From: Afipia sp. GAS231
GTDB lineage: Bacteria > Pseudomonadota > Alphaproteobacteria > Rhizobiales > Xanthobacteraceae
DNA length: 64,000 nucleotides
Direction of reading: 5' to 3'
Assembly: GCF_900103365.1 (NCBI RefSeq)
Contig: NZ_LT629703.1
Location: forward strand, 3,720,001-3,784,000
The notes under the pieces are model-generated. The model saw only the letters and a program-made list of their open reading frames with translations, was not told the origin of the DNA and made no database searches. Position 1 is the first letter of the stretch. Each line of letters starts with the position of its first letter. Positions 46,296 through 50,829 of the stretch are shown piece after piece. The translations under genes were made by a program, and so were the position numbers.

Positions 46296-46417
46296 AAATC
46301 CGCCGCAGTTGGAGTCTGTGACGCTTGGCGAACGCGCAAGCGTGGGTGACGCATGCTATATGGGTTCGCAGGCGCTCGGCAAAACGCCTTCGCGTGAATT
46401 TTGAAGGAATTCGAGGC

Positions 46418-47854
46418 ATGGCGGTCGCTTCCGAGACCATTGGCGGCGAAATCCCGCAGCAATACCCGCGCCGGTCCGCCGTCATCAGCTGGATTTTCTT
46501 CGACTGGGCGGCGCAGCCTTATTTCACGCTGATCACGACCTTCGTGTTTGCGCCCTATTTCGCCAGCTTCGTGGCGCCGGATCCGGCCAGCGGACAAGCG
46601 CTGTGGGGCTTTGCCACTGCAGCCGCCGGCCTGATGATCGCGCTGATGTCGCCGGTGCTGGGCGCGATTGCCGATGCCAGCGGCCGGCGCAAGCCGTGGA
46701 TCGCGGGTTTTGGCGTATTGCTTGTGATCGGCTCCGCGTTCATGTGGATCGGCAGGCCCGGCGATCCCGCGGTGATTCCGCCATTGCTGCTCGCCTATGC
46801 GATCGCGAGCGTCGGCGTCGAATTCGCCACCGTGTTCAACAACGCTATGATGCCGACCTTGGTGCCGCCGGACAAGATCGGGCGATTGTCCGGCACCGGC
46901 TGGGCCACCGGTTATATCGGCGGCATCCTCAGCCTGATCCTGGTGCTGGGCTTTCTCGCCGCCAATCCCGATACCGGGCGCACGCTGTTCGGCTTCTCGC
47001 CGCTATTCGGTCTCGATCCGGCCACGCACGAGGGCGACCGCATCACCGGTCCTTTGACCGGCATCTGGTTCATCATCTTCGTGCTGCCGATGTTTCTGCT
47101 GACGCCGGACTATCCGGCGCGACGACCGCTGCGTGCGGCGCTGCGCGAAGGCTTGACAGGCTTGAGGCAAACGCTCGGCGAACTGCCGAAGCAGAAAGCG
47201 ATGGCGACGTTCCTGCTCGCCAACATGATCTACACCGACGGCCTGGTGTCGCTGTTCGCCTTCGGCGGCATCTATGCGGCCGGCACCTTCGGCTGGCATA
47301 CGATCCAGATCGGTACCTTCGGCATCATTCTCGCCATCGCCGGAACTTTCGGCGCCTGGCTCGGCGGCAAGCTGGACGATCGTTTGGGACCGAAGCAGGT
47401 CATATCAGGCAGCATGCTGGTGCTGCTGTTCGCCATCACCGCGATCCTCTTGGTCGACAAGGATTCGATCTTCTTGGTGAAAGTTGCGCCGCCGGTACCG
47501 GGCGCGCCATTGTTCTCCGGCGCGGCCGAGCGCGCCTATCTCGTGCTCGGTTGCCTGATCGGCGCGGCCGGCGGTCCGCTGCAAGCGGCATCGCGCACGC
47601 TTTTGATTCGCCTGGCGCCAAAGGATCGCATCGCGCAATATTTCGGACTGTTCGCGCTGACCGGAAAAGTCACTTCTTTCATTGGCCCGCTGCTGATCGG
47701 CGCGATCACCGCGGCCACCGCAAGCCAGAAGGCGGGCATGGCGACGCTGGTGCTGTTCTTTGTCGCGGGGTTGGGGCTGTTGGTGCGGGTGAGGGAATTG
47801 CCCGTCGTCCCGGCGAACGCCGGCAACTGTTATGAAGGCCGTGGTGCGAGGTAG
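46418..47854 (+). CDS. UMF1/Atg22-type MFS transporter, C-terminus altered by an IS110 insertion
   Basis: This 478-residue transporter of the UMF1 (Atg22-like) branch begins with the family SWIFFDWAAQPYFTLITTFVFAPYF segment and has about 12 membrane helices. SPVLGAIADASGRRKPWI is the loop motif and ASRTLLIRLAPKDRIAQYFGLFALTGKVTSFIGP is near the end. The ATG at 46418 follows TCGAGG. The last codons (VVPANAG) are already read from a GTCGTCCC palindromic repeat, and the final nine (NCYEGRGAR) from the inserted element. Before the insertion the frame would have ended four residues further (THTA) at a TGA inside the repeat. Since only the tail differs, the transporter may still work. Substrate unknown. 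Confidence 0.87.
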   Translation: MAVASETIGGEIPQQYPRRSAVISWIFFDWAAQPYFTLITTFVFAPYFASFVAPDPASGQALWGFATAAAGLMIALMSPVLGAIADASGRRKPWIAGFGVLLVIGSAFMWIGRPGDPAVIPPLLLAYAIASVGVEFATVFNNAMMPTLVPPDKIGRLSGTGWATGYIGGILSLILVLGFLAANPDTGRTLFGFSPLFGLDPATHEGDRITGPLTGIWFIIFVLPMFLLTPDYPARRPLRAALREGLTGLRQTLGELPKQKAMATFLLANMIYTDGLVSLFAFGGIYAAGTFGWHTIQIGTFGIILAIAGTFGAWLGGKLDDRLGPKQVISGSMLVLLFAITAILLVDKDSIFLVKVAPPVPGAPLFSGAAERAYLVLGCLIGAAGGPLQAASRTLLIRLAPKDRIAQYFGLFALTGKVTSFIGPLLIGAITAATASQKAGMATLVLFFVAGLGLLVRVRELPVVPANAGNCYEGRGAR

Positions 47855-48774
47855 GCTTTCCGGTCTCGCACCATGGCGTTGAGGGTCGTGAGGAGTTTTC
47901 GGGCTACGGCGATCAGGGCAAGTTTGGCGGGTTTACCGGCGGTGCGGAGCTTTTGGTAAAAAGCTTTAACCGAACCATCGCGGCGTACGGCGTTGAGAGC
48001 GGCCATGTAGAGAGCGTCGCGGACCCGCTTGCGGCCGCCACCGATGGCTCGTTTGCCGCGATATAGGCCGCTATCGACGTTAAGCGGAGCCAGACCAGCC
48101 AACGCAGCCACCTGCTTAGGCCCGACGCGACCGAGTTCGGGCATCTGGGCGATGAGCTGCATACAGGCGACAGGCCCGACGCCTGGTGCCGATCGTATCA
48201 GACGCGCGTCGTCGGATATCGTCGGCTCGGCCTTGATGAGGGTTTTGATCCTGGCCTCGATCGCCTTGACCTCGCCGTTGAGGAAGTCGATGAGGCGCGC
48301 AATGCTTTCGATCATGGCGGGATCACGCGTCTCGCTGCGCCGGTTCTTCTCCTGAGCCCGCATGTGGACCAGTTGATCGCGGCGTTTTGCGAGGAGTGAC
48401 AGGGCGTTCCGGGCTGGATCTGGCGCCTGTTCGGAAGCCGGCGCCATCGTCCGCGCAAAGCCGGCGAGCATGTGGGCGTCAATCGCATCGGTTTTAGCCA
48501 GCCGTCCTCGCGCGCGGGCAAAGTCGCGAGCGCGGGCGGGATTGATGCGGGCAAACCGGATCCTGGCCCGATGCAACGCTTCGGCAAGTTCTCGGTCGTA
48601 GACGCCTGTGGCTTCGAATACGACAAAGACATTGCCGCATCGCCAACGCGCCACCTGCTCCGTGATGGCCTGTAGCGCGTTGGCGATGCGCTCGGGTTTG
48701 CCGACGGCATCATCAAAAATGTCGAGCGTATGCTTGGAGACGTCGATTCCGACGCAGCGAAGGGATAAGATCAT
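47830..48774 (-). CDS. IS110-family transposase (RuvC-like DEDD plus serine domain)
   Basis: This 314-residue recombinase is full length for the family. The N-terminal RuvC-like domain has CVGIDVSKHTLD (first Asp near residue 10), FVVFEATGVYD (Glu near 54), and KTDAIDAHMLA (Asp residues near 94-98). The C-terminal Tnp2 domain has SAPGVGPVACMQLIAQMPELG and AALAGLAPLNVDSGLYRGKRAIGGGRKRVRDALYMAA, in which the serine of NVDSG is the expected nucleophile. IS110 enzymes join DNA strands under guidance of a bridge RNA made from the element's own non-coding end. All key residues are present and the frame is intact, so the element may be active. Confidence 0.95.
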   Translation of the reverse strand: MILSLRCVGIDVSKHTLDIFDDAVGKPERIANALQAITEQVARWRCGNVFVVFEATGVYDRELAEALHRARIRFARINPARARDFARARGRLAKTDAIDAHMLAGFARTMAPASEQAPDPARNALSLLAKRRDQLVHMRAQEKNRRSETRDPAMIESIARLIDFLNGEVKAIEARIKTLIKAEPTISDDARLIRSAPGVGPVACMQLIAQMPELGRVGPKQVAALAGLAPLNVDSGLYRGKRAIGGGRKRVRDALYMAALNAVRRDGSVKAFYQKLRTAGKPAKLALIAVARKLLTTLNAMVRDRKAYLAPRPS

Positions 48775-48789
48775 GGGGCCTGTCCCTGT

Positions 48790-48911
48790 GATGCGAGGTC
48801 TGTTGGCGCAGCCTCGTGCAACTGTTCAGGTTAATGGTCGAAACGGGCGGGAGACCGAGCCGGTTTACGGCGTCATGCGCCAGGGACCCAACGGCTTCCC
48901 GCCCACCCCAT
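48790..48911 (-). ncRNA. probable IS110 bridge RNA with target and donor guides
   Basis: Read on the minus strand, 48904-48845 folds as a target-binding loop. The outer stem is GGGCGGGA/TCCCGCCC, the next stem AGCCG/CGGCT, and the apical hairpin GGCG-CATGA-CGCC; the left loop strand carries TGGGTCCC (plus 48883-48890) and the right side ACGCCG (plus 48868-48873). TGGGTCCC equals the left target flank and ACGCCG is the complement of the right target flank (CGGCGT). Further along, AACAGTTGC (plus 48818-48826) equals the element's own transposase-side end (47823-47831), followed by a CGAGG/CCTCG hairpin, as expected for the donor-binding loop. The exact ends are estimates. Confidence 0.7.
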
Positions 48912-49058
48912 CATGACAGACCCTGCACACACAGGGACCCATACCGCGTGATCTATCGTTAGTTCGTTGAGGCCGGTCGCTTCTTCAACAACGGCCTGTG
49001 GTTATGGGTCCCCGCGCCCGTGCGCAATTGCGCACTAGGCGGGGACGACGATGGATAA

Positions 49059-50657
49059 TCAATGCCTGAAATGCCTTACCCCAGTAAACACCATCGCGAT
49101 GCCGTGTTCATCGGCGGCCTTGATCACTTCCTCGTCGCGGAGCGATCCGCCGGGCTGGATCACCGCGGTGGCGCCGGCCTCGATGCAGGCCAGCATGCCG
49201 TCGGCGAACGGGAAGAATGCGTCGGAGGCGACCACCGAACCCTTGGTCAGCGGCTCTGCCAGCTTCAGTTCGGCGGCGGCATCCAGCGCCTTGCGGGCGG
49301 CGATGCGCGCGGAATCGACCCGGCTCATCTGGCCGGCACCGATGCCGACGGTGGCGAGATCCTTGGCATAGATGATGGTGTTCGACTTGACGTGCTTGGC
49401 GACCCGGAACGCAAACTTGAGATCGCGCAGTTCGGCATCTGACGGCGCGCGCTTGGTCGCGACCTTCAGCGCCATGTCCTCGACCACGGCATTGTCGCGA
49501 CTCTGCACCAGCATGCCGCCGGCCACCGTCTTCGCGGTCAGGCCCACGGTGCGCGGATCGGGCAACCCGTCGGCCAGCAGCAGGCGCAAGTTCCGCCGTC
49601 CGCCGATGATGGCGATCGCTTCTTCGGTCGCATCGGGCGCGATGATGACTTCGGTGAAGATGCCGATGATGGCGCGCGCGGTTTCGGCATCGAGCGTTCG
49701 GTTCAACGCGATGATGCCGCCATAGGCCGAGGTCGAATCGCAAGCCAGTGCCTTGCGGTAGGCCTCGACGAGATCGGCGCCCTCGGCGACGCCGCAGGGG
49801 TTGGCGTGCTTGACGATGACGCAGGCCGCGGTGCGCTTCGGATCGAATTCGCCGATGCATTCATAGGCCGCATCGGTGTCGTTGATGTTGTTGTAGGACA
49901 GTTCCTTGCCCTGCAACTGCCGCGCGCTGGCGACGCCCGGGCGCTTGTCCGGCGTGGCATAGAAGGCCGCGGTCTGGTGCGGGTTCTCGCCGTAACGCAG
50001 CGACTGGATCAAGCGGCCGCCGAAGGCGCGGTAATCAGGCGCATCGTTCTTGAGCTGAACCGCAAACCAGTTCGAGATCGCAGCGTCATAGGCCGCGGTG
50101 CGCGCATAGGCCTTGGCGGCGAGGCGGCGGCGCAGCCCAAGCGTGGTGGCACCCTTGTTGGCGGCGAGTTCGTCGAGCACGGCCTGATAATCGGAAGCTT
50201 CCACCACGACGGCGACATCGTCGTGATTCTTCGCCGCCGCGCGGATCATCGCCGGGCCGCCGATGTCGATGTTCTCGATGCAATCCTCGTAACCGGCGCC
50301 GTTGTCGACGGTGGCCTCGAACGGATAGAGGTTCACGACCAGGAGATCGATCGGCGCGATGCCGTGCGTCTTCATGGCGTCGGCGTGTTCCTTGTTGTCG
50401 CGGATCGCGAGCAGGCCGCCATGCACCTTCGGATGCAGGGTCTTGACCCGTCCATCCATCATTTCCGGAAAGCCCGTGAGGTCGGAAACGTCGGAGACCT
50501 TCAGCCCCGCTGCCGCGATCGCCTTGGCGGTGCCGCCGGTGGAGACGAGATCGATGCCGTGGCCGGCCAGCGCCTTGGCAAATTCAATCAGGCCGGTCTT
50601 GTCGGAAACGGACAACAGAGCGCGGGTGACGCGTCGCGGATGGTCGGTCATGGGCAA
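49059..50657 (-). CDS. purH: bifunctional AICAR transformylase/IMP cyclohydrolase
   Basis: This 532-residue protein carries out the last two steps of IMP synthesis: formylation of AICAR with 10-formyl-THF, then ring closure. The N-terminal IMP cyclohydrolase domain (about 1-150) has [27 protein letters not shown] and [18 protein letters not shown]. The transformylase part has [15 protein letters not shown], the catalytic KHANPCG (Lys-His, about 275), and a C-terminal [10 protein letters not shown] with [11 protein letters not shown]. Full length. Last gene of a minus-strand rsmB-heparinase-purH cluster, 172 bp after the heparinase gene. Confidence 0.97.
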
Positions 50658-50829
50658 GTTCCTCGGTTAAAGGGTGCTATTGCCCAGGCGCGCGGCAGCT
50701 ATGCCCGCGCTTCCCGATGGTGCTCCATCCAAAGTCGCCAGTCGCGCGAACGGCGGGTGGTTAGCAGATTTCGACGGCGGTAACAACGGCCAGATCCGGT
50801 TCGTGCCGGCACCCCTGCGCGACATTTTA

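Follow-up and report, generated by a model that had tools for sequence, protein, structure and literature searches.

How does an insertion sequence come to lie at one particular point of a palindromic repeat that is scattered over its host genome? The question is raised by a stretch of 64,000 nucleotides from Afipia sp. GAS231 (contig NZ_LT629703.1, positions 3,720,001 to 3,784,000), hereafter the window, meaning the whole stretch that was analysed. On its minus strand, at 47822-48935, an IS110-family insertion sequence interrupts such a repeat. We consider it very probable (about 0.93) that this is an intact and recently mobile element of the IS110 group (IS621-type), guided into host repeats by RNA. 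Its non-coding end encodes two loops, as expected of a bridge RNA, with guides that co-vary with the target and, thinly, with the donor.

An IS110-group element in a host palindrome

Core to core, the element measures 1114 bp. Its boundaries are defined by four near-identical copies in its own genome (G000), which encode 100% identical proteins and have different flanks. The dinucleotide CC is present at both ends, at 48934-48935 on the left and at 47822-47823 on the right (element features are given on the minus strand), and is common to the right end (RE, CAGTTG-CC) and to the flank (TGGGTC-CC). Insertion occurred at this short core, with no further duplication seen at the element ends, and no long terminal inverted repeats joining both ends were found among the best 25 of 110 inverted pairs ranked by length. 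CC was recovered at both ends in 97 of 97 counted copies and in L125, the most distant relative (44% identity); the end patterns used for boundary finding demanded CC, and among the 99 copies that entered L092 alone failed, its right end not being found. Two other placements of the core were rejected. With a CT donor core the left junction should read TGGGTCCCGGTG, whereas it reads TGGGTCCCTGTG; shifting the core leftwards by one base, to GC in the donor and CC in the target, is allowed by the letters but makes donor and target cores unequal.

The recombinase (314 aa, 47830-48774) combines the DEDD RuvC-like domain PF01548 with PF02371 and its catalytic serine. It matched the NCBIfam model NF033542, "IS110 family RNA-guided transposase", with 201 bits (cut-off 140) and the IS621 structure PDB 8wt6 with an E-value of 4.7e-38; residues D11, E54, D96, D99 and S235 are conserved and align with the DEDD and Ser residues of IS621. 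The long non-coding end lies 5' of the gene and spans 159 nt, whereas only 6 nt separate the gene from the right core, an arrangement that assigns the element to the IS110 group and not to IS1111.

Relatives were collected at several taxonomic depths. In the genus search, 16 of the 265 genomes carried the element with an E-value of at most 1e-90, at no fewer than 71 places; the family and order draws yielded 12 of 391 and 8 of 397 genomes passing 1e-75, and the class draw 2 of 385 passing 1e-65, tallies that include the own genome, the family draw also overlapping with genomes of the same genus. Copy numbers are lower bounds, eight candidates being scored per genome in the genus search and five in the family, order and class draws. 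The 99 copies comprised 71 from the genus, 27 from the family and order, and one (L052) from a search of a contig collection. Removal of L052, which is the same insertion as L039, and of L092 left 97; a further 12 were removed because their flanks (14 left and 16 right letters) were identical to those of another copy, leaving 85 distinct insertion sites from 29 genomes and 11 bridge-RNA clusters. The counts distinguish 30 groups, G197 forming two groups with two variants. Where two left-end candidates were present (15 copies), the candidate closer to the gene was taken. L125 was kept out of the statistics as a held-out case. A plasmid search returned 17 records with partial matches, none of which covered 80%. 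Other IS110-like types, at most 40% identical, account for 36 of the 40 recombinase matches in the own genome, several of them in many copies; for some (L005-L020) the ends were briefly inspected.

The target footprint is short. Across the 58 distinct Bradyrhizobium sites, target positions 2-11 (TGGGTC-CC-GG) carry 1.66 to 2.0 bits and all other positions from -14 to 39 less than 0.9; T is present at position 2 in 57 and at position 6 in 55 of these sites. By eye, most sites belong to two kinds of repeat, TATGGGTCCCGG...CCGGGACGAC and CTGGGTCCCGGCTCTGCG...GTCCGGGAC, with a few elsewhere; L028, L038 and L039 appear to lie outside such palindromic repeats. The element mostly lands in dispersed palindromic repeats because TGGGTC-CC-GG lies in them.

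At the window site the interrupted palindrome consists of a left half GTCGTCCCGGCGAACGCC (47804-47821, plus strand) and a right half GACCCATACC (48936-48945, plus strand), the latter following the core GG at 48934-48935. The same palindrome is uninterrupted at L132, L133 and L138, and a second, uninterrupted repeat copy that matches many dispersed places adjoins the element at 48995-49049 (plus strand). In genome G239 (L159) the orthologous gap is an empty site, with the repeat present as an inverted pair and the element absent. Neither GGGTCCC nor GGGACCC was seen at the orthologous loci L157 and L158, so that L159 alone of the three orthologous loci examined has the empty repeat. The uninterrupted 10-mer TGGGTCCCGG occurs 57 times in the own genome, versus 12 for the reversed pattern, and the contexts of 30 of these 57 sites were inspected. 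Within the 64-kb window TGGGTCCC occurs five times in total over the two strands; the guide accounts for one of these, the left flank for another and the repeat next to the element, at 49005, for a third. An earlier note on this DNA had described an intact IS110 (IS621-type) element with these boundaries and a bridge RNA in the non-coding end upstream of the gene, had rebuilt a pre-insertion site in a dispersed palindromic host repeat, and had expected other copies to share target-like junctions. All of this is borne out, the shared junction taking the form TGGGTCC/GG.

Beside the element, an upstream transporter-like open reading frame (ORF; 46325-47854 as mechanically listed, plus strand) crosses the repeat and terminates within the inserted element, as seen at 47780-47854. 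Where the window reads GAATTGCC, G239 (L159) reads GAATAACC, perhaps the original stop of this ORF.

Target guides that change with their targets

The target-binding loop (TBL) was read according to IS621 geometry, as a left target guide (LTG), a stem loop and a right target guide (RTG), with the core included in both guides. An outer stem, supported by the alignment (5' arm 48897-48904, 3' arm 48845-48852), encloses the LTG UGGGUCCC at 48883-48890, a terminal hairpin GGCGCATGACGCC at 48869-48881 (RNA letters GGCGCAUGACGCC), a GU linker and the RTG AAACCGG at 48860-48866, which reads AAGCCGG in the other three copies. The terminal hairpin is well backed by the alignment, with 97.3% of cells paired and three of four pairs changed on both sides.

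A register-free scan pointed to the same two guides. We compared the aligned left ends (LE) with the target along 6384 diagonals of six bases each, weighted by bridge-RNA cluster or by genome group. Under cluster weighting the best diagonal joined LE nucleotides 44-49 to target positions 2-7 (observed 0.97 against 0.67 expected). Among complementary diagonals the one joining nucleotides 69-74 to target positions 13-8 ranked highest (observed 0.91 against 0.77 expected). Genome-group weighting yielded the same two best diagonals, and the top five corresponded to the left-guide register under both weightings. When guides were permuted among the 11 clusters, the observed left match was reached in 0 and the right match in 6 of 100,000 permutations. 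Site by site, the LTG matched all six non-core left target bases at 76 of the 85 sites, and the RTG at least four of its five non-core bases at 63, with a mean of 4.1 of 5. At position 12, a guide G faced a target C at 47 of 66 sites and a guide U a target A at 14 of 17, the sites being related so that Fisher values overstate the association.

Both target guides have natural covariants, guide and target changing together among the relatives compared. On the left, UGGGCCCC is found with target TGGGCCCC in G744 (5/5 sites), UGGAUUCC with TGGATTCC in G776 (4/4), UGGAUCCC with TGGATCCC in G924 (1/1) and GUGCACCC with GTGCACCC in G666 (4/5), and further left covariants are GGGGUCCC in G296 and UGGUCCCC in G910 (one site of one in each). 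On the right, AGGCGGG occurs with CCCGCCT in G333 and AGACCGG with CCGGTCT in G772, and the pair GATCCGG/CCGGATC is complete at 7 of the 12 sites bearing this guide. In the held-out L125, read by eye, the LTG AGCAAUCC stands beside the flank AGCAATCC, and the RTG GCUCUGG fits CCAGGGC at 6 of 7 positions. As a separate observation, a partial second left end lies upstream of the element in L124 (G666). It breaks off precisely where its own left target guide sequence ends, as though the element's own guide DNA had served as the recombination site.

The earlier note had taken the left-strand segment identical to the left flank for the left guide, and this assignment holds: TGGGTCCC at 48890-48883 is identical to the flank. 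It had also proposed ACGCCG as the right target guide, so that 13 consecutive target bases would be covered. ACGCCG does complement CGGCGT in full both at the window site and at L060, but we regard the proposal as highly improbable. At 48873-48868 these letters form the 3' arm of the terminal hairpin, whose helix is conserved with compensatory changes, and they are constant in the 58 Bradyrhizobium sites while the targets vary. The segment matches a mean of 2.7 of 5 non-core bases over the 85 sites, versus 4.1 for the segment after the hairpin; its columns are complete at only three of these sites (the window copy, L060, and L107 with AGACCG) and at one of the four own-genome copies, and no diagonal over it is among the best 12 listed under either weighting. 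The coverage of 13 bases falls with it. With a palindromic target and a similar hairpin in the RNA, a guide read by eye can mislead.

Recognition of the palindrome by the recombinase protein, with the guide matches as by-products of shared ancestry, is just as hard to sustain. The targets are indeed palindromic, many copies come from related genomes, and older work weighed whether the transposase does the recognising, a view for which IS3-family elements had given experimental hints (PMC1525189). The conserved footprint is however asymmetric and ends at the guide-covered positions 2-11, elements with proteins about 48-56% identical switch target in step with the guide, and IS621 is RNA-guided by experiment (Durrant 2024, PMC11208160). 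Least likely of all is that TGGGTCC, although present at nearly all Bradyrhizobium copies, is the element's end and the left match an internal similarity, since copies of the same element within a single genome differ in it (G444, G084, G150, G398, G666), since it continues the host palindrome across the junction and since, as the 10-mer with GG, it is found uninterrupted 57 times in the own genome.

Donor loop, RNA fold and a predicted circle promoter

The donor-binding loop (DBL) has an outer stem whose 5' arm CCUG (48827-48830) was found as an alignment helix. It contains the left donor guide (LDG) AACAGUUGC at 48818-48826, identical to the element end at 47831-47823, and the right donor guide (RDG) CACAGG at 48785-48790, which pairs with CC-TGTG across the core and the left end. 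The 3' arm CAGG (48779-48782), paired according to the alignment, probably doubles as ribosome-binding site for the recombinase, and the folded RNA should therefore hold translation down, as proposed for ISPpu9 (PMC8450116). The segment AACAGTTGC (48826-48818) had already been singled out in the earlier note as a donor guide identical to the other end, and stands as such; the right donor guide, considered unclear there, can be identified as CACAGG. AACAGTTG is present in all parsed copies, CACAGG in all but L098 (CACGGG), and the donor end CC-TGTG in all except G690 (CC-TGTA). L125 provides, by eye, a donor covariant, its RDG CATAGG occurring with CC-TATG. Letters read by IS621 geometry would also allow a handshake: at the handshake-guide position CU (48858-48859) the C would pair with donor G7, and in the handshake guide GA (48783-48784) the G would pair with target C7 and the A with target T6.

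The nested stems that had been read in the non-coding end are supported by comparison. The alignment used 19 sequences, which represent 18 of the 30 groups. Its IS621-like helices, made up of two outer stems and two hairpins, showed pairing in 96.3% of cells and changes on both sides in 9 of their 23 pairs, versus 33-47% and 0-4 pairs for slid helix controls; four of five helix measures exceeded all 500 shuffles. A predicted sigma70-like promoter spans the junction of the circular form. Its -10-like element CATGAT (48910-48915) lies 17 nt from a TTGCCT formed across RE, core and LE and assembled from TTG (47826-47824), CC (47823-47822) and T (48933). The best spacer was 17 in 29 of the 30 groups, TTGCCT itself being implied by the end patterns used. 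For the own element, TTGCCT-17-CATGAT in the circle agrees with the consensus at 8 of 12 letters, versus 6 for the best integrated alternative, which scores lower in every group. As integration replaces the TTG half, the circle would be the main source of the bridge RNA, as described for IS621.

Several observations weigh against the RNA-guided reading. In a single-column scan the guide columns ranked first, second and fourth, and unrelated pairs, such as LE nucleotide 62 and target position 19 in third place, had nearly equal values; only the diagonals set the guides clearly apart. The left guide is incomplete at 9 of 85 sites, for instance L039 (2/6), L122 (3/6) and L101 (4/6). The RTG matches all five non-core bases at only 31 of 85 sites, positions 12-14 being often mismatched, so that the right guide would act mostly through CCGG; these positions seem tolerant, as may be expected from the basic RTG of IS621, which has 4 nt (PMC11208160). 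The RTG of the window copy fits its own site at 3 of 5 positions, less well than the guide of the other copies would, because their G would pair with target C12 and its A does not; this base change may postdate the insertion or be neutral. The 85 sites are not fully independent, given related genomes and shared repeats. The donor guides are nearly constant, so that the donor pairing rests on identity and one covariant. The single-sequence fold of the non-coding end is only modestly better than shuffles: its minimum free energy is -71 kcal/mol (z -1.92), which 8 of 200 shuffles equalled or surpassed. Of the helix measures, the fifth, further pair types, gave 14 observed against 14.4 shuffled, and the tested helices were picked from an RNAalifold consensus of the same alignment, which itself pairs part of the LTG with the RTG rather than leaving both open.

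With RNA guidance retained as the preferred explanation, the following course may be proposed on the model of the IS621 papers, from which transcription, the RNA-protein complex, strand exchange and handshake pairing are extrapolated. The element would be excised as a circle, whose joined ends would form the promoter TTGCCT-17-CATGAT. The transcript of this promoter would be a bridge RNA about 130 nt in length, encoded by the long end that precedes the recombinase gene. The target loop would pair with both host strands around CC, the LTG UGGGUCCC matching TGGGTC-CC and the RTG (A)AGCCGG pairing with CC-GGCT, while the second loop would pair with the joined ends of the element through the LDG AACAGUUGC and the RDG CACAGG. 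The recombinase would then join circle and target at CC.

Host repeats, sX15 and known systems

The four own-genome copies differ at a single base of 1114, window position 48864 (minus strand), which is A in the window copy and G in the other three and lies inside the right target guide. The chance that one difference of 1114 falls in the 15 target-guide positions is near 1%, for what is a single event only. We also counted four candidate target 10-mers on both strands of eight genomes. In the order G000, G150, G069, G444, G776, G744, G666 and G924, TGGGTCCCGG occurred 57, 52, 50, 31, 82, 6, 8 and 6 times, TGGATTCCGG 41, 114, 109, 42, 68, 11, 9 and 10 times, TGGGCCCCGG 16, 70, 53, 24, 13, 201, 15 and 44 times, and TGGATCCCGG 16, 30, 43, 24, 55, 2, 18 and 213 times. 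The 10-mer specified by the guide was the commonest of the four in three of seven genomes, G924 (213), G744 (201) and G000 (57); another was commoner in G150, G069, G776 and G444, and the target of G666 is outside the four. Reversed controls were low in most cells, with the exceptions of G744 (78 for its own 10-mer) and G444 (22 versus 31 for TGGGTCCCGG). The guides thus point at abundant repeats, not always at the most abundant.

The Rfam scan returned no bridge-RNA family at gathering score in the element region; below it, two families matched the opposite strand, sX15 (27.6 bits, gathering 55) and SpR20 (16.3 bits, gathering 45). The sX15 model (RF02234, a small RNA (sRNA) of Xanthomonadaceae) aligned over its full length with window positions 48771-48918 on the plus strand (E 0.0052). 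RF02234 also matched the opposite strand of the left end in 7 of 13 relatives tried (L099, L096, L113, L094, L109, L095 and L097), from 45.9 bits with E 0.00018 for the best to E 0.52 for the weakest, so that none reached the gathering score. A full RF02234 match with 150.9 bits is found in Xanthomonas hortorum (L160, 1350-1508). There, on the opposite strand and 26 bases beyond the match, an ORF start MNGIGIDVCKAKLFVG stops after 24 codons; by eye it looks IS110-like at its N-terminus and could be a decayed gene start. The annotated L160 ORF, in another frame, gave no Pfam hit and does not really resemble the window recombinase. Read by eye, the strand opposite RF02234 also looks like a target loop, one whose core is CT. 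The sX15 family may thus be an antisense RNA to a bridge RNA, or its wrong strand, and the link, if true, could re-label an existing RNA family. Elsewhere in the window, the Rfam scan found a Bradyrhizobiaceae sRNA match, and a ZMP/ZTP riboswitch at 50675-50755 (minus strand) lies directly before ORF 49059-50657, which looks like purH.

Taken together, one may picture a clade of CC-core bridge recombinases in Rhizobiales whose target guide drifts after the common palindrome of each host, the window copy being one base into such a change and sX15 being antisense to, or the wrong strand of, bridge RNAs; we put this forward tentatively, at clearly less than even odds. A natural guide-target series with several copies per genome lets the re-targeting of bridge RNAs in evolution be read, and a CC-core clade, if active, would widen the set of usable cores.

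No description of this element was found in the literature on IS110 bridge RNAs and palindromic repeats, with subscription papers mostly outside coverage. Like IS621, it has a DEDD and Ser recombinase, a long left end upstream of the gene, a TBL with LTG, hairpin and RTG, a DBL with LDG and RDG, a circle-junction promoter and insertion in repetitive extragenic palindromic (REP) repeats (Durrant 2024, PMC11208160; Hiraizumi 2024, PMC11208158). It differs in host and target, in an LTG of 8 nt instead of 9 nt, in its left end of only 159 nt, which makes the RNA shorter than the 177 nt of IS621, and in its core, CT in IS621. CC is found in all 97 counted copies and in L125, with GG opposite the core in both RTG and RDG; opposite the second core base the LTG has U (a wobble) in the Bradyrhizobium relatives and C in the own genome. 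The second core T is described as almost invariant in IS621 and related orthologues, and a glycine is said to contact it (PMC11208158); as this glycine lies in the conserved EATG, it does not explain the change to CC.

With ISPpu9, ISPpu10, ISPa11 and other REP-targeting IS110s the element shares insertion at a single point within a palindromic repeat, although the repeats differ (Tobes and Pareja 2006, PMC1525189). ISPpu9 shares a structured 5' untranslated region thought to hide the ribosome-binding site, and differs in having a demonstrated antisense RNA, Asr9 (PMC8450116). As in the seekRNAs of ISEc11/ISXne4 and ISEc21, guides match both target strands and natural re-targeting proceeds via changed segments (Siddiquee 2024, PMC11187229), whereas ISEc11 and ISXne4 are IS1111-type, with the non-coding region downstream, the order reversed and other targets (PMC11187229). 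Repeat-targeting IS110s, bridge RNAs and natural re-targeting have thus already been published, and what is added here is a corrected guide map, the CC core and a dense series of covariants.

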